From Vibrio agarivorans (GTDB lineage: Bacteria > Pseudomonadota > Gammaproteobacteria > Enterobacterales > Vibrionaceae), in assembly GCF_030409635.1 (NCBI RefSeq), contig NZ_JAUFQF010000003.1, positions 70,867 to 134,866 on the forward strand: 64,000 nt of DNA. The letters run 5' to 3'. Both the position numbers and the translations under genes were made by a program. The notes under the pieces were generated by a model, which was given only the letters and a program-made list of their open reading frames with translations, was not told the DNA's origin and did no database searches. Of this stretch, positions 21,740 to 50,081 are shown piece after piece. Each line of letters starts with the position of its first letter. Positions within the stretch are counted from its first letter, which is position 1.

Positions 21740-22528
21740 ATGGACTTACTTAGGGCAGTGGATGCCAACAGCTTTTATCCTGCATACCAAAAAATCATCA
21801 ATACAGAGACCAACATGGTCGTTGCATACGAACTATTAGCCCGATGTGAGCTGGATGGAGAAGCCTACTACCCTGCTTCATTCATCCCTAAAGCCAAACT
21901 ACTCAATATCACCCACGAAATCACTCTTAAGGTACTTGAAATCGCATTGAGGGATAATCAGTACAGCCCTACTCGACTAAATGTGAATTTTTCGCCAGAT
22001 GAGTTATCACTACCAATCATTTCCAAACAGCTAGACAAGCTAATTGCAAAGTATCGTTACCCGAAGCAACTCATTAGACTTGAGATCACCGAAACACCGT
22101 GCCACGTAACTTGGGGCTTGTTCCGTGATAACGTCAACAAGATGAGACTCGAAGGATGGTCATTTAGCTTAGATGATTATGGCATTAACAACCAAAACCT
22201 CCAACGCCTGATAGAGTTACCTGTCTCTCAAATCAAACTCGACAGAAGTCTTCTCCCAAGCGATTTATTCAATCCCAACCCCACCATTTCTGCGAGCCTC
22301 AACCAACTGCAAAAGGAAGAGCGCCTTAAGCGTCTATCTATCATCGAATCAATAGCCCGAGTCACAAGCAGCGCAAATATTGAAGTGGTAGCAGAAGGAG
22401 TTGAGACAAAACAAGTCGCTGATATATTGACTGGTTTAGGCGTAACCATACAACAAGGTTTCTATCATCACCGCCCAGAACCATTCCCCGATTCACTTGC
22501 TACCAGCTTACTAAGAACATTCGCTTAA
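21740..22528 (+). CDS. EAL-domain cyclic-di-GMP phosphodiesterase
   Basis: 262 residues, a stand-alone EAL domain. Landmarks: YELLAR (30-35, the EAL signature), NVNFSP (near 88), RLEITETP, SLDDYG, QIKLDRSL, VVAEGVET and IQQGFYHHRP. The acidic and Lys/Asn positions needed for metal binding and hydrolysis appear present, so it is probably active in lowering c-di-GMP. No GGDEF or sensor domain. It overlaps by four bases the stop of the convergent TusA-like gene. Confidence 0.8.
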   Translation: MDLLRAVDANSFYPAYQKIINTETNMVVAYELLARCELDGEAYYPASFIPKAKLLNITHEITLKVLEIALRDNQYSPTRLNVNFSPDELSLPIISKQLDKLIAKYRYPKQLIRLEITETPCHVTWGLFRDNVNKMRLEGWSFSLDDYGINNQNLQRLIELPVSQIKLDRSLLPSDLFNPNPTISASLNQLQKEERLKRLSIIESIARVTSSANIEVVAEGVETKQVADILTGLGVTIQQGFYHHRPEPFPDSLATSLLRTFA

Positions 22529-22824
22529 ACCTTACGAAGTGAGATGAGATTCAAAGTCACGATCCCCTCGTAGATTTCACTATGATCATCTTCATTCCAC
22601 TTTTTCTGCAAAACTTCGGGAACGGGACGTTTCATTTGCTCAATAGCCAAATTCCAGTCTTCATGTGCGTTAGCATATTCTAAATCTCGTAATAAGCTCG
22701 GCTCAATCGAACAGATATGCAAAGCATCGCAAGATTGACTCAATAGCTTTTTAACAGCGGCTCTCGCCCTAATCAGAGCGTCAGGACAGCGTAAGTCAGA
22801 TAAGTCTATTTTCAGTTCACTCAT
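22525..22824 (-). CDS. TusA-like sulfur-carrier protein
   Basis: About 99 residues from the chosen start MSELKIDLSDLRCPDALIRA; it overlaps the upstream gene by eight bases. The fold signature matches TusA/SirA: a first strand, then LRCPDALIRARAAVKKLL (TusA has GLRCPEPVMMVRKTV), then a second strand HICSIEPSLLRDL. The cysteine that carries the persulfide in TusA is kept in LRCP; the second Pro of CPxP is Ala. TusA relays sulfur from IscS. It is third in a unit with the DndB-like gene and beside a DndC-like sulfurtransferase, so a role as dedicated sulfur donor is the simplest inference. Its C terminus (about 60-99) extends beyond the usual TusA length. Confidence 0.65.
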   Translation of the reverse strand: MSELKIDLSDLRCPDALIRARAAVKKLLSQSCDALHICSIEPSLLRDLEYANAHEDWNLAIEQMKRPVPEVLQKKWNEDDHSEIYEGIVTLNLISLRKV

Positions 22825-23176
22825 TTGCATCAACCCTTGGCAGAGATCTAATCGCGCTCCAAACCAATTGCTCTCGCTCATTGCCAGAATACATAGGCTT
22901 GATCACTAAGTGCCCCTGCTTGTCACCTGCGAATATTTGGGAGATACCCGTTTCATCATCCAGCAAAATAGAGTCACAATCTCTAAACGCAAGGTCTTGA
23001 GCCAGAAAGTGCCATAGACGGTCAATGCAGGTACGTATTGGTCTTGAGTCCACCTGCCTAACACCATCGGTAATCACCGTGATTTTCATTTGGCGAGTGT
23101 AAAAGGTATCTAGACGAAACACGCACTGGTCATTGTCTATGTTCAGCCGATATGTAAAGTTCATGTTTTCATTCAT
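22817..23176 (-). CDS. Hypothetical protein in sulfur locus, 119 aa
   Basis: Not recognised. Alternating strand-like segments (YRLNIDNDQCVFRLDTFY, MKITVITDGVRQV) and a central helix (RTCIDRLWHFLAQDL). It sits between the DndB-like and TusA-like genes with a 10-base gap upstream and an overlap downstream, so it is certainly co-translated with them. Size is near that of DndE, but I see no DndE signature. Confidence 0.6.
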   Translation of the reverse strand: MNENMNFTYRLNIDNDQCVFRLDTFYTRQMKITVITDGVRQVDSRPIRTCIDRLWHFLAQDLAFRDCDSILLDDETGISQIFAGDKQGHLVIKPMYSGNEREQLVWSAIRSLPRVDANE

Positions 23177-23186
23177 TCACCTGTCC

Positions 23187-24341
23187 TCAAGCTGTTAATC
23201 TGATAGATGGGTAAATTCGCAGCTTTCTGCATAAAAAGCTTCCTATGACCTTTTCAGATTTAGGTGCGATCTGAACGGTTTTTGTGCCTTTGAAAGCGAT
23301 ATTACTGTCAAGCCAAATAGGGTCTGCGAGCTGGTGGAGAGGAAGGGAAGCAAGATTTGAAAAAGCCACGTAATCCACTTTTCGATTATTCTCCAATGCT
23401 TCTTCAATAGCCGAACGAAGTAAATAACCTAGCCCCTTGGCAAACAGCGCTTTTGCAACCAACGACTCTGTATGATGTTGTTTCCAATCATCGGTATCAA
23501 AGTGCTCAAGTGATAGCAATGGCAGCGTCTTACTGAGCAGACCTGAAATGGTCGCTTTCCATTGCGCGTAACAACTCGGGTCATACAATTGTTGATTTGC
23601 AGCTTTTGGGGTCGAGTCCATCAATGTCAAACATAGTGAACGGAACTGGTTCAAGTCCCACACCTGTCCTTTCTTTATTTTGCCATTCACGGCTATGGCA
23701 TCGAGCAAGGGTTTCTGGTTAATGAAAACCTCCGAGCAAATGTCCTTTAGCAGTCTGCATAAAGGGGCATCTGAAAAGTACAATGACAACGAGGTTTTGG
23801 GCTTGACCAAGTTTAAGTGAATATCAGCAAACAATTTTCGTATCAACCCTTTTACTTCATCAACGGTCTCGGTATTCGTCACAATAAATTTTATACCTAA
23901 CGTGCGATTAAGGAGTTGTTCGACCTGCTCTTGGTTCACAGTCTCCTGATTTTGAAGGTGTTTAATTTTTTTTGAAAAAGCCACATGACGACCTTGACCG
24001 TCATTGATAAAAGTCGAAGCATCACTGGATAAGTGCGCCAGAATTGCTTTTTGTCGCCCCACCTGAAATGTCTCTAGAACCTCTATCTTGCTTACAAAGA
24101 CGATCACGCCTGTAAAAGCTGTTTCATCCTCATCTAAGTACGAAAAAATGCCATTCACTCTAGGGTCATTCTCCGTGACATCTCGCTGTGACTTGTCTTG
24201 CTCTTTGAGCACATCAGAATTGGCTTCAACGCTAAAACCAGTCAGGTAATCCCCCACTGTTATTACCCCTTCATAGCAATCAAAGCTACTTCGTAAACCC
24301 TCGCTCGCTTCAAACAAGCAAACCTCAACCCCTGAACGCAT
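23187..24341 (-). CDS. DndB-like DGQHR-family protein
   Basis: 384 residues from MRSGVEVCLFEASEG (GGAGA site; the longer frame to 24386 crosses the promoter). Features shared with DndB: NDPRVNGIFSYLDEDETAF (58-76), the DGQHR-type signature D114-G-Q-G-R118, and IRKLFADIHLNLVKPKTSL followed by LYFSDAPLCRLL. DndB in dnd clusters is a regulator of phosphorothioation genes. First gene of the minus-strand arm of the sulfur locus; its promoter (24361-24405) overlaps the -35 of the promoter for the DndC-like gene. Confidence 0.75.
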   Translation of the reverse strand: MRSGVEVCLFEASEGLRSSFDCYEGVITVGDYLTGFSVEANSDVLKEQDKSQRDVTENDPRVNGIFSYLDEDETAFTGVIVFVSKIEVLETFQVGRQKAILAHLSSDASTFINDGQGRHVAFSKKIKHLQNQETVNQEQVEQLLNRTLGIKFIVTNTETVDEVKGLIRKLFADIHLNLVKPKTSLSLYFSDAPLCRLLKDICSEVFINQKPLLDAIAVNGKIKKGQVWDLNQFRSLCLTLMDSTPKAANQQLYDPSCYAQWKATISGLLSKTLPLLSLEHFDTDDWKQHHTESLVAKALFAKGLGYLLRSAIEEALENNRKVDYVAFSNLASLPLHQLADPIWLDSNIAFKGTKTVQIAPKSEKVIGSFLCRKLRIYPSIRLTA

Positions 24342-24360
24342 AACGTCTCTCCGTAAAATA

Positions 24361-24405
24361 TTTAACTGACACAATAAATATAACACAACCTACGATTGAC
24401 CTCAA
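24361..24405 (-). promoter_or_regulatory. Conserved plasmid promoter, DndB-like arm
   Basis: Core variant TTATATTTATTGTGTCAGTTAAA in pieces: TTATATTTATTG + TGTCAGTTAAA (24361-24383); -35 TTGAGG (24400-24405) at 17 bp. Confidence 0.7.
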
Positions 24406-24440
24406 TGATTAATTTTGCTATATTTATAGAGTCCATTAAA
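24396..24440 (+). promoter_or_regulatory. Conserved plasmid promoter, DndC-like arm
   Basis: -35 TTGACC (24396-24401), 17-bp spacer, -10 TATATT (24419-24424), then AGAGTCCATTAAA. Its -35 overlaps that of the opposite promoter by two bases, so the two arms are likely co-regulated or mutually exclusive. Confidence 0.8.
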
Positions 24441-24454
24441 TAAAGGTAGAAGCA

Positions 24455-27310
24455 ATGGCAGCAGTCAGTGTATGGGATTCATTTGATAGTGCGGAGATGC
24501 TCGATTGTATTGACATTACGAGCGAGACAAGCGACTTACAGAAAAAGCGCTACAAGAAAGTCCATAAAAAGTATCACAAAGAAGCGAGTCGCATCGCTGA
24601 AATGCTACTAAAGACAGACCGCATTTGTGAGGTTGGTAACTCGGGTGGCAAGGACAGTTACGTGGTCACGCTGATTGCTTTGGAAGCCTACCGACTGGCT
24701 AAGCAACGTGCAAAGGCACAAGGTAAGGTATTCATCAAACCACTTATTATTAATACGATTGATACTTTGATGGAAGAGCTACCCGTCCAGTTCTATTGCG
24801 ATTACAGCATTCCGCAAATACAGAAATACGCGAAAGAATCAGGGATTCACTTAATTTACAACCGCATTTCGCCCACCAAGCTCAACTCATTCGTTATGAG
24901 ATACCTTGGCGCTCGTAAATTTTTCACTAACGCTACCCGTACCGCTGACTGTACCGACTATTTCAAACTCACTCCCCTAAAAGCGCAGCAAAAAGAGACT
25001 CGTCAACTGTTCCCCCATTTCAAGCAGTGCAACCTCTCTGGTGTGAGAATTACTGAGTCAGCAAGACGCTCACACAACATGGCGAAACAGAGCACCGATA
25101 CGCGAACCATCAAACAAGTCGAGCAGAGTGACGATGAAAATATCTCTTACGCTCCTATTCGAGACTGGGATGCGGATGATGTGTTCGCCCTATTGAGATT
25201 AACAGGTGATGACCCACTCGTTACTGTTCCTAGCCTAGAGCCAATACGAAGCTTTCAGCGAAATGCTGGACTACTTATCGAAATATATGGGGATGCCTCT
25301 GCTCCCGACACCTGCCAAATTAACTTGTCTGACGATGGGGAAGAAATCGGAGGGGGTTGTAGCTCTTCCAACAGCTCAAGAATGGGTTGCACGTTCTGTA
25401 CGATAGTGACAGCCAACAAGTCGGCAGAGAACTTTATTACAAAGCCACGATGGAAGTTGTTGGGGATGGATAAAGCACTCAGGATACGAGATTACATTTG
25501 GCGATTGTCGATCACACCATCAAGTCGGGCTTTTCATGCTCGTTCCATAGACCCTATTTTGCAGAGAGTAATGCTCCAACAAAATGTGCTTAAGCCTAAG
25601 TTGACTGAACGAGTGTACCGCTATTTATGTCAATTAACTCGTGATGCCGAAGATGTGCAATATGAAATTGATGCTAAGGGGACATTAGCCTTTGAGGGTT
25701 ATCAAGACATTCTCAATGATCACTCTATTCATCCCAAAGCCAAGAGGGACTACCTCGACATGTACGCACAAGGGATTAGGAAACCGTTCTATCAATTCGT
25801 AACCCGAAATGACGCGATCACCTTAAGCTTTGTTTGGGCTTTGGATGGGTTATGCACCTTAAATTATGCCCCAATTGGCATCTATAACGAGGTTTTCGAG
25901 AAAAACCGCTCGGTGGCGTACCCTAAATTGAACAGCGAAATGACGGTACAGCCAAAACTAAAGAGTACACCCATGCACGATGCTTTTGCCCTACCTCTAC
26001 TCAGTAAGGAGGCAGAGCAAGCCTATCGGTTTGAGCCGCTTAAGGAGGTATTGCCTTATCACGATGAGTGGTTGCATTTAATCGAAGAGCGCTGCCCATC
26101 CTCAGTCATCAAACCAAAGCACACATTACGTCTCAATGTCAGTTACACAGCCGAGAATGACAAAACCCTGATTGACTCAGTTTCAATCGTAGGCTCAACG
26201 AAAAAATACGGTATCGAACGCTTTACCGCCATCGAAGCCGAGTTGATGGAGGCTTGCCAAAAGCATCGCCTCAAAAGGTCAAGTACCGATGGTTTACAAC
26301 AAACAGTGATTGAGCTTCGCCATCTGAAAATTAAACACATCGAGGGAATGCCAAACCCAAGCGCACGGAAAAAACCAAATCACTATTTCAAAGAGAGTAC
26401 CGTTCGAGTGAGAAAGCAGGGTATGCCAACTACCACGAGACTTCGGTTTTATAACGCCCGTCCACGTTCGAGTCTACAACAGCAACACCATACCAGTGCT
26501 GTATTGCTTAACTTCGATCCAACAAACAAACATGACATAGACCTAAATATCAACGATGAGCAAGATTATGAACACCTAGCTATTGAAAGTATTTCGATAG
26601 ACTCAGAGGTGGGAACACTTTACTGGAATGAACTCGATGGATGGGAACGGGCTGTAAGAGAATATGAGCAGGACAAGGAGCACTACATACACAACCTACG
26701 CAAATGGAAACGTAAAAAGGCGTATGACGGTCTAAACATCGTTCGCAAAATGATGGCATTCCAAGGCATTACTATCGCACCACGTTACATCACAGAGCTT
26801 AGGCGTATCATCTACAGAAGCTACATTTTGCAACAAGCAAGAGCCTTTGATTACCAGTCATTGAGTCTCTCACAGCTAGAGCGCAAAGCCGAGCAAGGCG
26901 CACTCATTACTATGGCGCAACATCGCTCAGATAAGGCTCAGAAACTACTCATGTTGCGCTCCATGAGAGCTGCCGACAGACAACAATTAAGACATAAACT
27001 CACTGGTGGCGACATCGCAAAAACCATCATCGCTAAAATCGATGCGCTTAAAAACACATTGACTTCAATCAACGACACCGTTGCCAATGACTTCTTGACC
27101 CACTTCTATCGTGAAGCTTCGAGTGATTTTAAAGCGTTCCAGCGTGAAATGATGACAAAGCACGAACGTCATGAATTAGAACAAAATGCCCAAGCACTGC
27201 ATGAAGCCGTTAAGCACTTTGATTGCACCTTTGATGTGAGGAACGCAGCCAAGACGCTGAATAAGGTTGCATTGAGTCAACAGGCTAAGCTATTTTCCCA
27301 GTTAATATAA
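24455..27310 (+). CDS. Giant DndC-like PAPS-reductase-family sulfurtransferase
   Basis: 951 residues; ordinary DndC is a little over half that. Residues 50-340 carry the DndC pattern: PP-loop S63-G-G-K-D-S68, NTIDTLMEELP (100-110), SGVRITESARRSHNM, APIRDWDADDVFALL, and a four-cysteine set C287, C302, C312 and C315 in GGGCSSSNSSRMGCTFC, followed by TIVTANKS (DndC: CTVVxxDKS). DndC is an iron-sulfur ATP pyrophosphatase that puts sulfur into the DNA backbone. Residues 340-951 are unassigned, rich in Lys/Arg and helices, and may supply functions otherwise carried by DndD/E. A GTTTTTCTCGAAAAC motif lies at 25892-25906. Confidence 0.75.
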   Translation: MAAVSVWDSFDSAEMLDCIDITSETSDLQKKRYKKVHKKYHKEASRIAEMLLKTDRICEVGNSGGKDSYVVTLIALEAYRLAKQRAKAQGKVFIKPLIINTIDTLMEELPVQFYCDYSIPQIQKYAKESGIHLIYNRISPTKLNSFVMRYLGARKFFTNATRTADCTDYFKLTPLKAQQKETRQLFPHFKQCNLSGVRITESARRSHNMAKQSTDTRTIKQVEQSDDENISYAPIRDWDADDVFALLRLTGDDPLVTVPSLEPIRSFQRNAGLLIEIYGDASAPDTCQINLSDDGEEIGGGCSSSNSSRMGCTFCTIVTANKSAENFITKPRWKLLGMDKALRIRDYIWRLSITPSSRAFHARSIDPILQRVMLQQNVLKPKLTERVYRYLCQLTRDAEDVQYEIDAKGTLAFEGYQDILNDHSIHPKAKRDYLDMYAQGIRKPFYQFVTRNDAITLSFVWALDGLCTLNYAPIGIYNEVFEKNRSVAYPKLNSEMTVQPKLKSTPMHDAFALPLLSKEAEQAYRFEPLKEVLPYHDEWLHLIEERCPSSVIKPKHTLRLNVSYTAENDKTLIDSVSIVGSTKKYGIERFTAIEAELMEACQKHRLKRSSTDGLQQTVIELRHLKIKHIEGMPNPSARKKPNHYFKESTVRVRKQGMPTTTRLRFYNARPRSSLQQQHHTSAVLLNFDPTNKHDIDLNINDEQDYEHLAIESISIDSEVGTLYWNELDGWERAVREYEQDKEHYIHNLRKWKRKKAYDGLNIVRKMMAFQGITIAPRYITELRRIIYRSYILQQARAFDYQSLSLSQLERKAEQGALITMAQHRSDKAQKLLMLRSMRAADRQQLRHKLTGGDIAKTIIAKIDALKNTLTSINDTVANDFLTHFYREASSDFKAFQREMMTKHERHELEQNAQALHEAVKHFDCTFDVRNAAKTLNKVALSQQAKLFSQLI

Positions 27311-30253: not shown

Positions 30254-30622
30254 ATGGCGACAGTCAATAAATTTGAAAGCCCAGCAAACGAATATGCCAG
30301 TTTGTCTGAGCTTAACCTACATACTCTGCTGGTGGGCAATCATCACCACTCCATCTTTTTTTCATACGCCCAAGGGAATAACCTTCGGAGTCGCGGCATT
30401 ATGTCGGGCGACCTCATTATTGCAGATAGAGCCGTTAAGCCCCATGATGGCGATTTGGTGATAGCGCTCGCAGTTGATGGATTTGTACTCCGAGTCATCG
30501 ACCTTAATCACCGATGCTTACGCTGCGATAACGAACCTTCCATCCCGTTGCATGGTGATGTCATTATCGAAGCAACAGTGACTCAAACCATCCGTTGCCA
30601 TCGACCATTGCAGCTAAACTAG
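30254..30622 (+). CDS. umuD: UmuD'-like protein, pre-truncated, without catalytic dyad
   Basis: 122 residues related to the UmuD C-terminal domain: FESPANEYASLSELNLHTLL aligns with the start of processed UmuD' (FPSPAADYVEQ). Then GIMSGDLIIADRAVKPHDGD and FVLRVIDLN. Two changes stand out. The N-terminal segment normally removed by RecA-stimulated self-cleavage is absent. The catalytic Ser of GDSM is Asn (AQGNNL) and the catalytic Lys (FTVKK) is Arg (FVLRV). The protein should therefore be a constitutively UmuD'-like, uncleavable partner of UmuC, with control left to LexA. Its stop abuts the umuC start. Confidence 0.75.
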   Translation: MATVNKFESPANEYASLSELNLHTLLVGNHHHSIFFSYAQGNNLRSRGIMSGDLIIADRAVKPHDGDLVIALAVDGFVLRVIDLNHRCLRCDNEPSIPLHGDVIIEATVTQTIRCHRPLQLN

Positions 30623-31885
30623 ATGTATTTTCTCTGTGATGTACATGCAATGTACCCATCCTGCGAACAAATTCATCGCCCCGACCTAAGACACAAAGCC
30701 GTAGCCGTAGCTAGTAACGGAGATGGATTGGTGGTCGCTCTTAATCGTGCTGCGCGTGAGCTAGGGGTGAAACGCTATGAGCCTGTTCATTCTCAACGTC
30801 ATCTGTTTTCCGAAGACAAATGCACGTTGTTCTCGTCCAACTATCGTCTTTATCAGGATTGCAGTTTACGCCTAATGCGCTGCTTAAAGTCAAAAGGCAT
30901 TTTTATTGATATGGCTGATTACAGTATTGACGAAACGTTTGGAGAACTACCACATTTCATACGAACGTATGATGACCTTCTATCGGCAGCAAGAGCACTG
31001 AGAAGAGCTGCGTGGGATGAAGTTCGATTGCCAATTGGAGTCGGTGGGGGGCGAACATTCACAATCGCCAAGGTATCATCGCACATTGGTAAGAAGGTAG
31101 AGGGTTATCGAGGTATCTGTATTACATTGCCCGAAACCGAAAGTGATCACCTTAAGCTCGTTAGTACTTCGGATATTTGGAACGTAGGAGCGTCCACAGC
31201 CGCTCTTTTACGCAGAAAAGGGATAATGACCGCCTTAGACCTCAAAAACGTTTCACCGAGCGATGCGAGAAGCTGGATGGGGATTAATCTAGAAAGGACG
31301 GTGAGGGAGCTAAGGGGACAGGCGATTTATTCAATGTCATCTTTTCCTGACTGCAATACGAGAAAAGAGGTTACATCGAGCTTAACACTGAGCGTGAAAG
31401 CCACAACCACCATCGAACTACATCAAGCTCTCTCTCAAAGGGTCGCCACTGCTGCCGAGAAACTTAGACGCTTAGGTTTTTCTGCAAAAGTCATTACCCT
31501 TTATGCAAGCAGTAGTCGATTTGACCCAGACCCTCAGTATTCCAATACGACTATCACTCTCGAACAACCGACAGATGACACCAGAGTATTCATTGCAGAG
31601 TTGAGCAAACACCTTAACCAACTATTCAAAAAAGGTGTAGAGTTTAACAAGGTTGGATGCAGACTGATGAGCCTTGTGCCAAGCGCCAATCTGCAGGGCG
31701 ATCTATTTGCACCGAAACAGTCACCTGAATTAATGAAAGTGGTAGATGGGCTGAATCAACGCTTTGGCAGCCATCTAATTTCAATTGGTGCTCAGAAGGT
31801 AGCCAGTGAAGCTCAAATGCTCAGAAGACACCTAAGCCCCAACTACACAACAAGCTGGAATGACCTACCAAAAATCACCTGCTAA
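30623..31885 (+). CDS. umuC: Y-family DNA polymerase V catalytic subunit
   Basis: 420 residues, normal UmuC length. Catalytic acidic residues present: D6 in FLCDVHAMYPSCE, and D103-E104 in YSIDETFGELP. Also SNGDGLVVALNRAARELGV, GVGGGRTFTIAKVSSHIGKK, a little-finger domain, and a beta-clamp-binding motif (QGDLF, near residue 357). Error-prone translesion synthesis with the UmuD'-like partner. LexA box at 30224-30239. Confidence 0.9.
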   Translation: MYFLCDVHAMYPSCEQIHRPDLRHKAVAVASNGDGLVVALNRAARELGVKRYEPVHSQRHLFSEDKCTLFSSNYRLYQDCSLRLMRCLKSKGIFIDMADYSIDETFGELPHFIRTYDDLLSAARALRRAAWDEVRLPIGVGGGRTFTIAKVSSHIGKKVEGYRGICITLPETESDHLKLVSTSDIWNVGASTAALLRRKGIMTALDLKNVSPSDARSWMGINLERTVRELRGQAIYSMSSFPDCNTRKEVTSSLTLSVKATTTIELHQALSQRVATAAEKLRRLGFSAKVITLYASSSRFDPDPQYSNTTITLEQPTDDTRVFIAELSKHLNQLFKKGVEFNKVGCRLMSLVPSANLQGDLFAPKQSPELMKVVDGLNQRFGSHLISIGAQKVASEAQMLRRHLSPNYTTSWNDLPKITC

Positions 31886-40855: not shown

Positions 40856-42730
40856 ATGATTAATCGCGACTCTGTTCAAAGCATTTTGACGCAACTGGGC
40901 GAAGAGAACATTATTTTACAGACCCCTACAGGTATTGTAGCTAATATTAGTGACTCAGATTACTTTGCTGTTGGGTCACATTCAAAACACGCCATTGACC
41001 CTGCATTGCGCTCTGGTTTGGACTACAAATTTTTCACAGTAGACAAACGAGGTAAGAAAAAATCGAGCGGTATGGACGATGGCTCTCTACTCCATTGCTT
41101 GACATTAGAGCCTGAAACTTTTGACTCTAAGTATGTTTTGCAAAAAAACTATGAAGAAATTCACCGCGACAACGATGCTTTCTTTGTCAATGTCGAAGCG
41201 TTTAAGGCGACAATTTCCGAGCACAACCGCAAGCACAGCGCATTTGCAAAAGAACTTAAGAAAGCAGCAAAGGTATTTAACTCTTCGAGTAGTCAAACTA
41301 AAGAGCTGGAAATCACCGAATATAGTGAGCTGCCTACCGAGTACAAAACAGCAACACTTACTACCGCAGGTAAAACAAAAGCCTTGAAACGATTTGAAGA
41401 ACAAATCCTTGTTCGCATCACTGATTCAGTTCAGGGGGATGAGCTGAAAAGACTCGTAGCTGTTAAGGTCGAAGCCCTGTCTGCTGCGCTTAATGAGCTT
41501 TACACCCAAACTGAGGTTAAAAGTTTCTATAAAGCTGAGCTAGGCGTAAAACGTCAAATCCTGAACTCGCTTATTGATGCAGTGATTGTAAAGCGCACTA
41601 CGATGAGTGCTGATGAGTTTATGGAGTACGTGCCAGAGCAAATCATTGAATCTGCACTGACTCAAGCTAGTAAGAAGAAAGCACTATCCGATTATTCAAA
41701 AACTCAGAAATCGCAAAAACAGCAAATTGACGAAAAACAAGCTATCGATACTTTATATAACGAACTAAAAGCCAACCAAGCTCTAAACGATAGCTGTGAA
41801 GAGTACGCTATTAGCTACCTGACTAAATTACCGAATGTCGGCAATAAGAAGAGCGATAAAGAGGTATTTGAGCTAGACGAATGTATTCAGGCATTTGAGC
41901 GCCTCTACAAAACCAAACCCGTGATTATGACAGAGCTGGTGGAAGCGGATAAATACCGAGCGTCAGAGCAGAAAAAAACGCTAATTAGCCAAGAACAATT
42001 TGATCATGCGATGAGAATTGTTGAGTCAGTTAAGCAACACCCGAGAGCAAGCAAGTACCTATCATTAGATGACAACATGTATGAAGTGGCAATGTTTTGG
42101 AACGAAGAAATCAAACACCCTTCACTACCAAATCAAGTCCGTCAGGTATTGTGCAAATTAAAAGCTGACTTGCTTAACCTCAAATACAACATCATGGCAG
42201 ACCTTAAATTTGTCAGCTCGGTGGATTTCGACAAAATGAGTCGCGATGCTGGCGCGTTCAATTATCACGTCCAAGAAGCCTTCTATAGTCGCGGCTTTAA
42301 CAAGGTCTGTGAAAGCTTACCTGATGGTGCTGAAACGTTACTAAAGTTTGTGTTTATCTTTGTAGAGAAAGATGCACCTGAGCTTGGTAAAGAAGAAACG
42401 AAGCCTATTCGTATTCGTGTTGGTGTTTACAAGCCCCATCACCGCGAACGGGCGAATCAACTCATCGATGCAAGTTTCTTAGAAATCGAACATTGGACTG
42501 ATGACGATATTTTCACGGGGTTTGAGGACGAAGAGATGTTAGACGTACCTGCCTATCAAGTTAAGCGAGAGATGGAATTTATCTCATCTCATAAGGCACA
42601 CATGAACAAAAAAGCGGAAGCGCAGAACGAGCAACCACAAATCGCTCGTTCGCAACACGAAAGCGAAAGTGAATATCCAAGCTTTAATGCATTGATGACT
42701 TCCAACTCTTCAAAATCAAATGCCGCTTAG
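40856..42730 (+). CDS. RecE-like exonuclease with large insertion, 624 aa
   Basis: N-terminal SSGMDDGSLLHCLTLEPETF (about 62-81) and C-terminal KADLLNLKYNIMADLKFVSS, followed by FNYHVQEAFYSRGF, match the RecE (exonuclease VIII) nuclease; D449 and K451 form the DxK of the PD-(D/E)xK site, and E in NMYEVAMFW is the upstream acidic residue. Between these blocks (about 90-380) is a long helical, Lys-rich insertion not expected in RecE. It would degrade one strand of DNA ends for RecT-mediated annealing. A dispersed motif copy lies at 41135-41149. AAAGG site, conserved promoter upstream. Confidence 0.7.
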   Translation: MINRDSVQSILTQLGEENIILQTPTGIVANISDSDYFAVGSHSKHAIDPALRSGLDYKFFTVDKRGKKKSSGMDDGSLLHCLTLEPETFDSKYVLQKNYEEIHRDNDAFFVNVEAFKATISEHNRKHSAFAKELKKAAKVFNSSSSQTKELEITEYSELPTEYKTATLTTAGKTKALKRFEEQILVRITDSVQGDELKRLVAVKVEALSAALNELYTQTEVKSFYKAELGVKRQILNSLIDAVIVKRTTMSADEFMEYVPEQIIESALTQASKKKALSDYSKTQKSQKQQIDEKQAIDTLYNELKANQALNDSCEEYAISYLTKLPNVGNKKSDKEVFELDECIQAFERLYKTKPVIMTELVEADKYRASEQKKTLISQEQFDHAMRIVESVKQHPRASKYLSLDDNMYEVAMFWNEEIKHPSLPNQVRQVLCKLKADLLNLKYNIMADLKFVSSVDFDKMSRDAGAFNYHVQEAFYSRGFNKVCESLPDGAETLLKFVFIFVEKDAPELGKEETKPIRIRVGVYKPHHRERANQLIDASFLEIEHWTDDDIFTGFEDEEMLDVPAYQVKREMEFISSHKAHMNKKAEAQNEQPQIARSQHESESEYPSFNALMTSNSSKSNAA

Positions 42731-42739
42731 GGGTCTAAA

Positions 42740-43612
42740 ATGAAAAAATGGCTTAATCCAGATTACATCCAAACATTGCGTACGTTAGCTCAGATGTACG
42801 CTCGCAGCAAAGATGTCCGAGAAGAATTCTACGGAGATGAAGCGACCATATTTTCTCTGCTAATGAAAGCGGATGCTTGGAACGTCACGCCCGACTATGT
42901 TCTACAAGGTAGCTTCTATGACCAGTATGGTGTAATTGCCCATACTGGTAAGCTTCTACGCTTGGTTTTGGAAAACAACAATGAAATCTCTTCGATTAAA
43001 GTAACTGAGATTGGTTCTTGGGAGAAGATTGCCAAACAGTACTCTGTTGTAAGCATGGATGGAGGTAAGCCTGTTTACCAAGAGTCTTGGGATAAAGCAA
43101 TAGCTGCGGAACTTGGATTAGCTGTAAGCATCGAGTTCTACGACACAACGTTAGAACCTATTGAGTATAAATTGATGCTCACTGACATTGATCCCACAGT
43201 TAAGAAACTAAACCCAAACTGGATTACGTCACCGCGAACGCAGCTAGAAAACACGATGCTACGCGATCTTGCCCATACGCGATTATACCGCTACATCAAT
43301 TCTCTGAACATGGATGATGCAGAGCTAGAGAAGCACGATGCGAAAGTGTTAAATAATCAGACCCCCACCCTCGCTACAGCATCAACAGAGCAGCAGGACA
43401 CTACTAAGCCTATGAGCGTGATTGCTTTGGCTACAGATGTGCAGAAAAGAATGATAAAAGCGCTAAGCGATGGTGAAGATAATATCACTGGTCTCATGGA
43501 TGAGCTGGTGGCATTAATTAAGGCTAAAGGTCAGAGTCTTTCTGACCAAGAACGATACCACCTAGAAGCTATTTATAACGAATGCAGAGACATCATTGTT
43601 GCGGCAGCATAA
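42740..43612 (+). CDS. RecT-like single-strand annealing protein
   Basis: 290 residues. Matches RecT-type annealases in MKADAWNVTPDYVLQGSFYDQYGVIAHTGKLLRLV, IGSWEKIAKQYSV and WITSPRTQLENTMLRDLAHTRLY. Ten bases after the RecE-like gene: a recET pair for plasmid recombination. The frame stays open past its TAA through the 36-bp repeats (NCLNETTLKGEQ repeated). Confidence 0.7.
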   Translation: MKKWLNPDYIQTLRTLAQMYARSKDVREEFYGDEATIFSLLMKADAWNVTPDYVLQGSFYDQYGVIAHTGKLLRLVLENNNEISSIKVTEIGSWEKIAKQYSVVSMDGGKPVYQESWDKAIAAELGLAVSIEFYDTTLEPIEYKLMLTDIDPTVKKLNPNWITSPRTQLENTMLRDLAHTRLYRYINSLNMDDAELEKHDAKVLNNQTPTLATASTEQQDTTKPMSVIALATDVQKRMIKALSDGEDNITGLMDELVALIKAKGQSLSDQERYHLEAIYNECRDIIVAAA

Positions 43613-43893
43613 AACTGTCTCAATGAGACAACTTTAAAGGGTGAGCAAAACTGTCTCAATGAGACAACTTTAAAGGGTGAGCAAAACTGTCTCAATGAGA
43701 CAACTTTGAAGGGTGAGCAAAACTGTCTCAATGAGACAACTTTGAAGGGTGAGCAAAACTGTCTCAATGAGACAACTTTAAAGGGTGAGCAAAACTGTCT
43801 CAATGAGACAACTTTGAAGGGTGAGCAAAACTGTCTCAATGAGACAACTTTGAAGGGTGAGCAAAACTGTCTCAATGAGACAACTATAAAGGA
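43611..43893. repeat. Eight tandem 36-bp repeats, each with a 7-bp inverted repeat
   Basis: Unit AAAACTGTCTCAATGAGACA + ACTTTAAAGGGTGAGC, starting at 43611, 43647, 43683, 43719, 43755, 43791, 43827 and 43863. Each holds the perfect palindrome TGTCTCA-A-TGAGACA. Copies differ only at one A/G position (ACTTTAAAG/ACTTTGAAG), and the last copy degenerates at its 3' end. Architecture matches F sopC (tandem 43-bp units with 7-bp inverted repeats, bound by SopB), so this is a candidate ParB centromere. It lies between the recT-like and helicase genes and is transcribed with them. Confidence 0.85.
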
Positions 43894-43907
43894 AAAAAGG
43901 AAAGGTT

Positions 43908-45443
43908 ATGTTATTTAGAGGTCACGAGATAAGCCAAGAGCAGGATTTTGCTAGAAGTCAATTCATGCGACTTAAGCGTGGTGAACTGCTTACTCTAAAT
44001 TCGGGGGCTGGTGCTTCAAAGACATACACATGTAACCTGTTGCTTTCCTCCCTTGACCACGAAGACAAATGTCTTGTGATTGCATTTAACAGACTCATCG
44101 TTGATGAGATGCGCTCAACGTTCGGTAAGAATGTGGATGTACTCACAAGTCATGAGCTAGCTAGAAAGTACATTAAGAAATATTCATCATCTCGACTTGA
44201 ACGACCACTATTACCGAAAATGATTACGGAGAAAATTGAAATACCTGCGTTTATTGGCGCAATTGACGCATTAACTTTTTCTCAAAAACTTTTAACAGGT
44301 CTTAAGAAGTATGCGAATTCGGAAGTGCTCAGCATTACTGAATTTGCTAATGACAATGCGAAGGAGTTGCTTAAAAGTCATAATAAAGGTGAGATTGTTT
44401 CTTACGTCATGTACCTGAAACGGTTATGGGATGAACTGACTCTGAGTGATTCGACCCTACCTATCATCCATGATGTTTACCTAAAAGAATTTGTTTTAAA
44501 AGTAGCGGCAGGTGAGATTAATTTAGAAGAATATAAAGCAGTCGTTCTGGATGAGGCTCAAGACAGCGCACCAATAGTGAAGCTATTATTCTCAACTATT
44601 AGTACAATGAAGCTCGCTGCAGGTGATACCCACCAATCTATCTACGAATGGCGTGGGGCTGTAAATGTGATGAACGAATTAGGTTTAAAATCAACGTACA
44701 CCGCTGAACTGAGTACCTGTTACCGATTCGGACAGTCGATAGCCGACCTCGCTAATTCACTGATTGAAGAGTACAAAGGGACAAGCCCAAAATTCAAAGG
44801 AAACCCAAACAAGCAAAGTACTATTAAAACATCATCGGTAGTTGAAAATAAGGAGCTATGGCTATTTAGAACCAACGCTGAATTGATTAGTGAATTGATT
44901 TATGCGACACAGCAAGGTGTAAAATGCCACCTGCTTCGCGATAATAAAAACATGATTAAGCTATTGGACGAAGCCTACTCCTTATATCAAAACAAGCCTG
45001 TTAAATCTGGGGTATTACGCCTATTTGATTCATGGGCAGAATTTGAAGCGTTTGCAACTAGTGGTGATGGTGGCGAATATAAGAGTTTTGTAAATGCTGT
45101 TCTCAATCATGGGTTCGAGGCAATTAAGCAAGTGATCCAAGAGTCACTAAATACTGATATTACGGAAGCTCAGCGCTTATTTTCGACAGCTCATGCTTGT
45201 AAAGGGATTGAGCATAACCATGTCGTACTGCACAGCGACTTCGATAAGTTCATTGAGAAAAGTCATGCGGCTAGCTTAGAGCAGGAAGTGAACTTGCTAT
45301 ATGTTGCTCTAACAAGAGCAATCAAGACGCTGGATATTAGTCGATGCAAAGTCCTGACTAAACTGCTGATGAAAAAAAATGAACGCATGAACAATATTGC
45401 GATGGAAAATAAACGTAAGGAACTAGCCCTGCTGGGGATATGA
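43908..45443 (+). CDS. UvrD/Rep-type superfamily 1 helicase, 511 aa
   Basis: Walker A variant NSGAGASKTY (31-40; G before K replaced by S), CLVIAFNRLIVDEM (motif Ia region), VVLDEAQDSAP (motif II, about 211-221), AGDTHQSIYEWRGA (motif III), STCYRFGQSIADLAN (motif IV), STAHACKGIEHNHVVL (motif V) and LLYVALTRAIKTLDI (motif VI). DNA-unwinding ATPase in the recombination operon. AAGGAAAGG ribosome binding site lies right after the repeat array. Confidence 0.85.
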   Translation: MLFRGHEISQEQDFARSQFMRLKRGELLTLNSGAGASKTYTCNLLLSSLDHEDKCLVIAFNRLIVDEMRSTFGKNVDVLTSHELARKYIKKYSSSRLERPLLPKMITEKIEIPAFIGAIDALTFSQKLLTGLKKYANSEVLSITEFANDNAKELLKSHNKGEIVSYVMYLKRLWDELTLSDSTLPIIHDVYLKEFVLKVAAGEINLEEYKAVVLDEAQDSAPIVKLLFSTISTMKLAAGDTHQSIYEWRGAVNVMNELGLKSTYTAELSTCYRFGQSIADLANSLIEEYKGTSPKFKGNPNKQSTIKTSSVVENKELWLFRTNAELISELIYATQQGVKCHLLRDNKNMIKLLDEAYSLYQNKPVKSGVLRLFDSWAEFEAFATSGDGGEYKSFVNAVLNHGFEAIKQVIQESLNTDITEAQRLFSTAHACKGIEHNHVVLHSDFDKFIEKSHAASLEQEVNLLYVALTRAIKTLDISRCKVLTKLLMKKNERMNNIAMENKRKELALLGI

Positions 45444-48620: not shown

Positions 48621-49105
48621 TTTGCAAAAAGACCATTGCTGCTCTTTCGCAATTAGCCGAGAGTGATAACTGGATCTCACTAAAAGACGAAGCGGCAGTT
48701 CGTTTGCCGTTAGATCAAATAGCCTTTGAGGAATGGCAACCTTCACGTACAGAGCGCTGTAAAAAAGCTGTTGCTAGTGGTGTAAGGCTTCCACCAATAG
48801 AGGTTGTCTACTATCGAATAAAAGGGGAGGCAATTTACTATGCGGTTTCTGATGGCAATCACAGATGCGAAATGAGGCGGCAGCAGGGAGCAAGTGACGT
48901 ACTTGCTAATATCAATGGGGGGTATGACATTGCCCCTAAAAATTACAAAATTTATCGAAAGATGGTGTGGAAAAGAACATCAGATGGAGAATGGAAATGC
49001 ATCAGTTGTGATTATTTGGATGACTGGCTTATAGAGCGTATTAGGGGAATTGGGGTAGGGGAGTATGACATATACAACGGAGAGCGAAGTCAAAACTATC
49101 GATGA
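48617..49105 (+). CDS. ParB/Srx-like nuclease-fold protein, 162 aa
   Basis: Begins at a TTG overlapping the previous stop. ParB-like core: LPLDQIAFEEWQPSRTERCKK, GVRLPPIEVVYYRI and the signature AVSDGNHRCEMRRQQGASDV (about 74-93). Stand-alone ParB-fold proteins of this kind are common on mobile elements; some are nucleases or CTP-binding. No helix-turn-helix follows, so it is unlikely to be a partition protein. Overlaps the next gene by 41 bases. Confidence 0.65.
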   Translation: MICKKTIAALSQLAESDNWISLKDEAAVRLPLDQIAFEEWQPSRTERCKKAVASGVRLPPIEVVYYRIKGEAIYYAVSDGNHRCEMRRQQGASDVLANINGGYDIAPKNYKIYRKMVWKRTSDGEWKCISCDYLDDWLIERIRGIGVGEYDIYNGERSQNYR

Positions 49106-50081
49106 AGTTTTTGCTGATGTCCAGATGATCAGCAATAAATTGAACACACTGCAAGCACACTTGGTCGAATGTGAGGTGTATTATGCCAACGTAGCTGTTC
49201 TACCTCGTGCTGCGGTAAATGAAGACGGGTACGACACCGTTTTCGATCCTCTGACGTCAGTGAAATTAATACGTTTAGAAGGCAAAGAAGCTGCTTTACA
49301 TGCAATTGAACAAATAGATTTTCAATATCGAAGTAAAGATGGGTTTAACACCACAAACGAAACGCTGTCACAGATAGCTGCAAGGCGGAGTGTGGGCATT
49401 GTCCATTTAAAGCCAAATTCTGAGGAACACACAACCCTCATCAATGACTTGGTTGCTGAAATCAATACGATGAAAAGAACGCTAAAACAAGACCTTCAAC
49501 CGTTGTTTGCAAATACAATGCAGCGAACGAGATTGTTCTATAAGCATTTCTTTCCAGACATCCTGCCAAAATCGATCACCAAGCTAATAAGGTTAGCTGA
49601 TGCTGATGCTTGTCGAATCCATTTTAGTTGGTTAAACCAAGGCTACACTACTGAAAAAATGGATCGGAAGAGAGCAATAGAATACATCGACAAAATTAAC
49701 TCACGAAAGCTCAGTAATAATCCAGAATTAGGACTTACCCTAGACCAGCTCAACAAAAATGACATTCAAAAGTTGGGGAACTATCAGAAGTTCTATCGGA
49801 TTTTTCCAGCTAAGATGAATCCACGACAGCAAATCACACGCGATGTAGGTGGCAATAGGAAACAAATGCAGCCACAACGTGCTGTATCTCCAATTCTATA
49901 CATAGGTGAAAAGCCGTTAGAGCACTATGGGGTATTGCATGACCTGAACACGCTAGATGAACTCAGAAAATGCAGTAATAAAGCAAGAGTGGAACACCTA
50001 GCCGCAATCGAGGCTTATGGACTGTACTGTTTTGATACTGTCGAGCGACAAAATAGGGGAAAGTTCACGAATTATGAGTAA
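49065..50081 (+). CDS. Hypothetical protein, 338 aa
   Basis: Not recognised. Strong GGGGAG ribosome binding site. Soluble, helical, basic C-terminal half (PRQQITRDVGGNRKQMQPQR). Last gene of the 40.9-50.1 kb operon, followed by the terminator at 50147-50180. Confidence 0.55.
   Translation: MTYTTESEVKTIDEVFADVQMISNKLNTLQAHLVECEVYYANVAVLPRAAVNEDGYDTVFDPLTSVKLIRLEGKEAALHAIEQIDFQYRSKDGFNTTNETLSQIAARRSVGIVHLKPNSEEHTTLINDLVAEINTMKRTLKQDLQPLFANTMQRTRLFYKHFFPDILPKSITKLIRLADADACRIHFSWLNQGYTTEKMDRKRAIEYIDKINSRKLSNNPELGLTLDQLNKNDIQKLGNYQKFYRIFPAKMNPRQQITRDVGGNRKQMQPQRAVSPILYIGEKPLEHYGVLHDLNTLDELRKCSNKARVEHLAAIEAYGLYCFDTVERQNRGKFTNYE

Follow-up and report, generated by a model that had tools for sequence, protein, structure and literature searches.

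What do a TusA-like sulfur carrier, a DndB-like protein and a giant DndC-like enzyme do together in a Vibrio? The question is raised by a locus of Vibrio agarivorans that lies within a stretch of 64,000 nucleotides, referred to here as the window. The original prediction described four open reading frames (ORFs) at 22525..27310 as a divergent sulfur-transfer locus, and all four were confirmed there: a TusA-like gene, a 119-residue ORF and a DndB-like gene on the minus strand and the giant DndC-like gene on the plus strand. The DndB-like, TusA-like and giant DndC-like genes are a conserved module, and the 119-residue gene is not in it. We tentatively propose that this three-gene module of plasmids inserts sulfur into nucleic acid, with a phosphorothioate (PT) in the DNA backbone as the most likely product. 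In the PT systems known so far the sulfur is believed to come directly from a cysteine desulfurase, and several proteins are needed for its placement. If the proposal is true, a TusA-carrying set of three genes joins DNA sulfur marks with the sulfur relays of tRNA in a small, testable system, and a chemical mark may have gone unnoticed on the large plasmids of Vibrio, Shewanella, Alteromonas and Pseudoalteromonas.

Recurrence of the three genes

Giant-type DndC genes were collected from 30 loci (L numbers; genomes carry G numbers), of which one is in the window, 21 are in stretches of plasmids and 8 in stretches of genomes. Among them L006/L009, L011/L034 and L012/L036 are near-copies, and L004 and L076 are one plasmid present twice, with the same length and places. 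Blind clustering of the ORFs of at least 70 codons in 23 of the 30 loci returned the DndC-like gene in 23, the DndB-like gene in 23 and the TusA-like gene in 21. The next sets of ORFs occurred in six loci at most and consisted of antisense ORFs in these same genes, two genes of about 155 residues (5 and 4 loci), a methyltransferase and a ParA-like gene (3 loci each). The original prediction had named co-occurrence on plasmids beforehand as a test, and the three genes do recur together. It had also noted that a TusA-like gene was not familiar from canonical dnd or ssp clusters, which for dnd is borne out by the absence of a TusA-like profile match from all 12 canonical dnd loci; such a match was found in 25 of the 30 giant-DndC loci and in 12 of the 17 that lay outside the building of the profile. 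The TusA-like gene follows DndB directly in 21 of the 25 positive loci; in the window the 119-residue ORF intervenes. In the Alteromonas plasmids L006 and L009 the TusA-like sequence forms the N-terminal part of the DndC protein. At L041 an insertion lies between a TusA-like piece, which lacks the Cys end, and a broken DndB.

The evolutionary distances of the three proteins are correlated over 21 loci, with r between 0.65 and 0.88 (DndB–DndC 0.88, DndB–TusA 0.73, TusA–DndC about 0.67), and none of 9,999 shuffles reached the observed values. Nine of the 30 loci (L009, L011, L036, L041, L076, L004, L040, L039 and L106) were left out of this test. The DndB-like and DndC-like genes are divergent in 16 of 21 loci and on the same strand in the other 5. 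The correlated distances, the recurrence and the TusA–DndC fusion refute a chance neighbourhood of unrelated plasmid genes; that explanation retains next to no probability and applies only to the orphan that separates DndB from the TusA-like gene. The original prediction had counted this 119-residue gene as a member of the set. It was rejected as a fourth component, as it lies outside the recurring set and no relative was found: a search of 5.8 billion proteins, which depends on shared five-residue words, returned only the ORF itself, Pfam, NCBIfam and PADLOC gave no match at E 1, and the best PHROGs match had an E of 0.11. The ORF overlaps the TusA-like gene and is thus an orphan within a recurring operon.

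Homology of the module proteins

The 951-residue protein is a divergent relative of DndC, as judged from its sequence. It matches the NCBIfam DndC model TIGR03183 with 75.1 bits (E 5e-21) and the PADLOC DndC model with an E of 3e-28. It had been described as a DndC-like sulfurtransferase; the SGGKDS motif, the four cysteines and the DndC matches agree with this, but the score is far under the 290.4 bits of the DndC equivalog cut-off. The loci L082, L085 and L086 score 538-557 bits with the same model. Assignment of the protein to ordinary sulfate reduction or tRNA thiolation had been named as grounds for giving up the idea; the profile searches made neither, and both NCBIfam and PADLOC put DndC models first. 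Its score with Pfam PAPS_reduct is 17.9 bits, under the cut-off of 22.5, and in PHROGs it is best matched by a phage family that bears the name PAPS reductase. A role in ordinary sulfate assimilation was rejected, as two other proteins of the PAPS reductase family in the window's genome, on contig 4, are over the Pfam cut-off and the giant protein is below it. Its classification as a genuine enzyme of tRNA thiolation was also rejected, since its NCBIfam matches include neither an MnmA nor a TtcA model.

The putative functional residues are well conserved. Ser63, Gly65, Lys66, Asp67 and Ser68 of the PP-loop are kept in 21/21 and 19/19 rows of two alignments, and GKD[ST] is missing only from L079 (AKDS) among 45 rows. 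Cys166 is present in all 25 giant, 12 canonical and 8 stand-alone rows. Cys287, Cys302, Cys312 and Cys315 are kept in 25, 25, 24 and 25 of the 25 giants, and each is found in all 12 canonical and all 8 stand-alone proteins. With its PP-loop, its catalytic-type Cys and four Fe-S-type Cys, the protein is predicted to be a DndC-type PP-loop sulfurtransferase in the broad sense. In a tree of 25 of the 30 giants and of 12 canonical and 8 stand-alone proteins taken from the loci retrieved, the giant clade adjoins DndC and other DndC-like proteins; CysH was not among the rows. The near-copies L009, L011 and L036, the broken L041 and L076, from the plasmid of L004, were excluded from the tree. The DndC gene is shortened or split into two ORFs in L011 and L040.

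The DndB-like protein had been predicted to have a DGQHR domain, and it passes the cut-offs for this domain (66.3 vs 58.85 bits) and for PF14072 (50.3 vs 29.1 bits). It does not reach the DndB equivalog TIGR03233 (17.6 bits, cut-off 328), and its version of the motif is DGQGR. The pattern DGQ.R is invariant across an alignment of 18 rows.

The small protein is classed as a divergent TusA. Pfam TusA gives the window's protein alone 17.1-17.6 bits, under the gathering score of 28.6, and for this reason it is named divergent TusA-like and not canonical TusA. Only 4 of 15 members of the family match Pfam TusA individually at E 0.05. The prediction of a TusA-like carrier, which falls below the cut-off as a single sequence, is supported by family profiles, which point to homology with genuine TusA. 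A profile of 13 DndB-adjacent small proteins, built without the fusions, matches E. coli TusA in the PDB (1dcj and 3lvj, E 2.4e-4 and 2.6e-4), and the next row has an E of 0.7; with the fusion rows included the E for TusA is 3e-5. The TusA-like profile was also run against 394 genomes of the order, with at most 12 candidates scored per genome, and gave matches in 291 and nothing in 103. The top scores are the module copies of giant-DndC carriers, at 77-88 bits (G000, G394, G237, G448 and G345) and 43 bits (G101). Below them is a plateau near 30 bits that consists of ordinary TusA and also contains the module copy of carrier G161 (29.8 bits); coordinates were compared by eye for 20 plateau genomes, and in all 20 the match coincides with a Pfam TusA gene over the cut-off. 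From the window's genome the profile retrieved only the window's gene and missed the TusA of contig 4. The Cys-Pro pair is kept in 23 of 23 TusA-like rows, the piece at L041 begins past this site and two Aeromonas candidates carry CE. Among the TusA residues that contact IscS is Arg27 (PMC2854127), which is kept in 18 of the 23 rows.

Other Dnd and sulfur-transfer components of the carriers

The original prediction had noted the absence of dndD and dndE from the window, and neither was found over the cut-off in the whole genome. Eight further carrier genomes were searched along with that of the window, and none of these nine had a DndD over the cut-off, vs 4 of 4 control genomes with canonical DndC. 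The best DndD score in the window's genome is 38.9 bits over 60 residues, the cut-off being 245.85. The result for DndE was the same, none over the cut-off in the nine carriers vs 4 of 4 controls. SspB (DUF4007) gave no match in 13 genomes, but the controls, too, failed to give one. The window's genome, the carrier in which this was tested, encodes a host IscS (756.6 bits, cut-off 643.2), and a second TusA is located on contig 4. No cysteine desulfurase gene was noted in the annotation tables for the loci. The contigs that carry the module are 57-289 kb in length (n=9) vs more than 300 kb for 10 of 12 control contigs; these sizes fit plasmids, though several of the genomes are drafts.

Comparison with known systems

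The module shares with Dnd (IscS/DndA-DndBCDE) a DndB-like DGQHR protein, a PP-loop DndC-like enzyme with the identical five cysteines and a host IscS. It differs in that no DndD or DndE was found in the carrier genomes, in the extension of about 600 residues on DndC and in having a TusA-like carrier of its own. In addition its arms are mostly divergent and plasmid-borne, and both window proteins are far under the Dnd equivalog cut-offs. Ssp (SspABCD) and Type-4 BREX also use a sulfurtransferase of the PAPS reductase family, in some cases with extra domains (PMC12839542); however, the partner in the module is of the DndB type and the annotated loci showed no cysteine desulfurase gene.

In tRNA thiolation sulfur is relayed from IscS through TusA, TusBCD and TusE to MnmA. 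A Cys-Pro TusA-like carrier, a presumed IscS donor and a PP-loop acceptor enzyme are common to this relay and the module, but the module's carrier gene is linked to that of a DndC-type enzyme, and the two are joined in one gene in Alteromonas. The stand-alone plasmid proteins of the 'PAPS reductase family' (IncHI2 and others) have a DndC-like core with the same cysteines and are also found on large plasmids. They are shorter, about 600-810 residues, and are separated from the giants by a well-supported branch of the tree, and no DndB-like or TusA-like match was found in the four of four plasmid stretches L010, L104, L105 and L107. DndC-like matches were obtained by tblastn in 1572 of 72,556 plasmid records. 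No description of the DndB-TusA-DndC set was found in the literature searched, which excluded most subscription papers and all bioRxiv preprints, so that an earlier description is possible.

Proposed mechanism and alternative explanations

In the proposed mechanism host IscS would form a persulfide from cysteine that Cys13 of the TusA-like protein would accept. The TusA-like protein would then pass the sulfur to the giant DndC-like protein, to Cys166 and/or to an Fe-S cluster on Cys287/302/312/315. The PP-loop would adenylate the target, and the C-terminal extension may take over the roles of DndD and DndE in binding, opening and nicking the target. The DndB-like protein would regulate both arms. 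We infer the direction of sulfur flow, the adenylation, the role of the extension and the regulatory role of DndB. The repeated linkage and the fusion suggest TusA as the direct donor to DndC, and a TusA-to-DndC relay is probable. Nucleic acid is a likely target of the module. That the product is a backbone PT falls somewhat short of an even chance: DndD and DndE are needed canonically and were not found, so that PT is one of several outcomes. The original suggestion of a host IscS feeding a dedicated TusA-like relay gains support from the linkage in 25 of 30 loci, the fusion, the lack of a TusA-like match in the canonical loci and the presence of IscS. More speculatively, the module may be a third class of PT system beside Dnd and Ssp, in which a giant enzyme is served by a dedicated TusA-type carrier and its extension stands in for DndD/DndE (or SspB/SspC). 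It would provide large plasmids of marine Gammaproteobacteria with a solitary mark, perhaps one that protects the plasmid.

Several observations weigh against the PT proposal. PT in Streptomyces lividans requires every one of dndA, dndC, dndD and dndE (PMC2653506), and because of this the loss of D and E needs a substitute that is unproven; the extension gave no significant PDB match and no fold was recognised for it. PT in E. coli carrying the Salmonella dnd genes is reported to need IscS and not tusA (PMC3519819). The other IscS-contact residues of TusA (Glu21, Arg31 and Phe58) vary among the 23 rows. Five of the 30 giant loci (L004, L076, L039, L106 and L040) have no profile-found TusA in the stretch. 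In L004/L076 the DndB gene is split, and its C-terminal part and a TusA-like gene lie about 19 kb away. In L039 and L106, both from Aeromonas, the ORF just 5' of DndC is TusA-like by eye, with the Cys kept and CP changed to CE, and has no profile match. No TusA-like gene was found in L040. The correlated distances may reflect a set that moves together, but shared plasmid ancestry gives the same result. Finally, no restriction partner recurs in the clustering of the 23 giant loci. This lack is not unusual, since solitary dndBCDE clusters without restriction genes have been reported (PMC8569181).

Could the same relay make another product? A thiolated DNA base or thiolated RNA is rather unlikely. 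MnmA is fed by TusA and TtcA is an Fe-S PP-loop enzyme, and the PP-loop fold is common to many enzymes. IscS-TusA transfer serves tRNA thiolation (PMC2854127), and the dispensability of tusA for canonical PT in E. coli (PMC3519819) and the failure to find DndD and DndE in the nine carrier genomes also favour this explanation. However, it is DndC-family models that lead the matches, with no MnmA or TtcA model among them, and the enzyme has a DndB-like partner. The DndB of Salmonella binds DNA and regulates transcription of the dnd genes (PMC4507180), and loss of dndB in Streptomyces strengthens the modification phenotype (PMC2653506). DndB has also been assigned to the ParB superfamily, and ATP-regulated DNA nicking has been cited for ParB/Srx proteins (PMC12839542). 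This assignment, together with the lack of a separate restriction gene recurring nearby, would suit a role in defence or plasmid competition, with the DndB-like protein, as an effector of the ParB/sulfiredoxin type and possible NTPase or nickase, reading a mark made by TusA and DndC. The regulatory role of Salmonella DndB speaks against this explanation, which we consider quite improbable. The same regulatory role and the divergent promoters with overlapping -35 boxes would fit a regulatory or metabolic sulfur module that does not act on nucleic acid, such as a sensor of sulfide or redox state in which DndB is the repressor. Little probability is given to a sensor either, as the cysteines and the PP-loop are kept across the giant clade and this clade adjoins DndC and DndC-like proteins in the tree, which had no CysH rows.

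Gene organization and the replicon

The features of the locus are given in Table 1. The original prediction had the two arms facing each other across 54 bases. They are back to back, separated by 68 bases if the DndB-like gene starts at the listed GTG or by 113 bases if it starts at the likelier ATG 24341, which is favoured by a ribosome-binding site (GGAGA) 5' of it and by the 18-row alignment. The predicted divergent promoters were found as a sigma-70-like pair, and their -35 boxes overlap; two such patterns were found in the intergenic DNA vs a mean of 0.6 in shuffles. The Salmonella DndB operator TACG-N10-CGTA was not seen by eye in this intergenic DNA, for which no pattern search was run. 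The TusA-like protein probably starts at 22824, giving 99 residues and an overlap with the stop of the preceding gene.

Table 1. Positions in the window of the genes, residues and candidate promoters discussed in the text.
Feature	Position	Strand	Remarks
Giant DndC-like protein, 951 residues	24455..27310	+	N-terminal PP-loop/PAPS-reductase-type domain (about residues 29-346) and C-terminal extension of about 600 residues
PP-loop SGGKDS of DndC-like protein	24641..24658	+	residues 63-68
Cys166 of DndC-like protein	24950..24952	+	conserved, catalytic-type Cys
Cys287, Cys302, Cys312 and Cys315 of DndC-like protein	25313..25399	+	candidate [4Fe-4S] ligands
C-terminal extension of DndC-like protein	25517..27307	+	residues 355-951; confidently modelled
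DndB-like DGQHR-domain protein	23187..24341	-	motif DGQGR; likely start ATG 24341; start of listed ORF GTG 24386
TusA-like sulfur carrier, 99 residues	22525..22824	-	Cys13-Pro14 at the position of TusA Cys19-Pro20
Orphan ORF, 119 residues	22817..23176	-	between the DndB-like and TusA-like genes, in operon
Sigma-70-like promoter TTGACC-17-TATATT	24396..24424	+	5' of the DndC-like gene; consensus match only
Sigma-70-like promoter TTGAGG-17-TATATT	24377..24405	-	5' of the DndB arm; consensus match only

The genome comprises 4.9 Mb in four contigs, and the window is part of contig 3. This contig has 134,866 bases and ends where the window ends. It is very likely a plasmid because the window encodes ParA, a replication-terminus protein and an RctB-like replication initiator, the last with a score below its cut-off (22 vs 27 bits).

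Neighbouring genes

Two families of about 155 residues are located right after the giant DndC, one in L005, L007, L035, L043 and L075 (5 of 23 loci) and the other in L008, L037, L038 and L078 (4 of 23). They are a possible lineage-specific fourth component. C5-cytosine methyltransferase genes were seen near the module in L006, L008 and L077, among others, and PF00145 was found in 6 of the 140 neighbour ORFs (of 187) covered by the family scans. On plasmid p1 of Vibrio gigantis (L004 and L112) a break near profile position 79-85 divides DndB into two parts about 19 kb apart; 5 kb of the DNA between them carries genes for ATP-binding, SAVED-domain and nucleotidyltransferase proteins, which are CBASS-like by eye. 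The module of Vibrio gigantis p1 appears to be the insertion site of an island.

In the window a stand-alone EAL-domain protein (138.8 bits, 21740-22528) is convergent with the TusA-like gene and touches it. A UmuC-type polymerase with IMS domains is encoded at 30254-31885, and the short ORF that precedes it is LexA/UmuD-like by eye. A PDDEXK-like DUF3799 protein and a UvrD-like helicase lie close together at 40856-45443. The replication-terminus protein, of the Tus/Ter family, is located at 49065-50081 (PF05472, 50 bits, cut-off 22).

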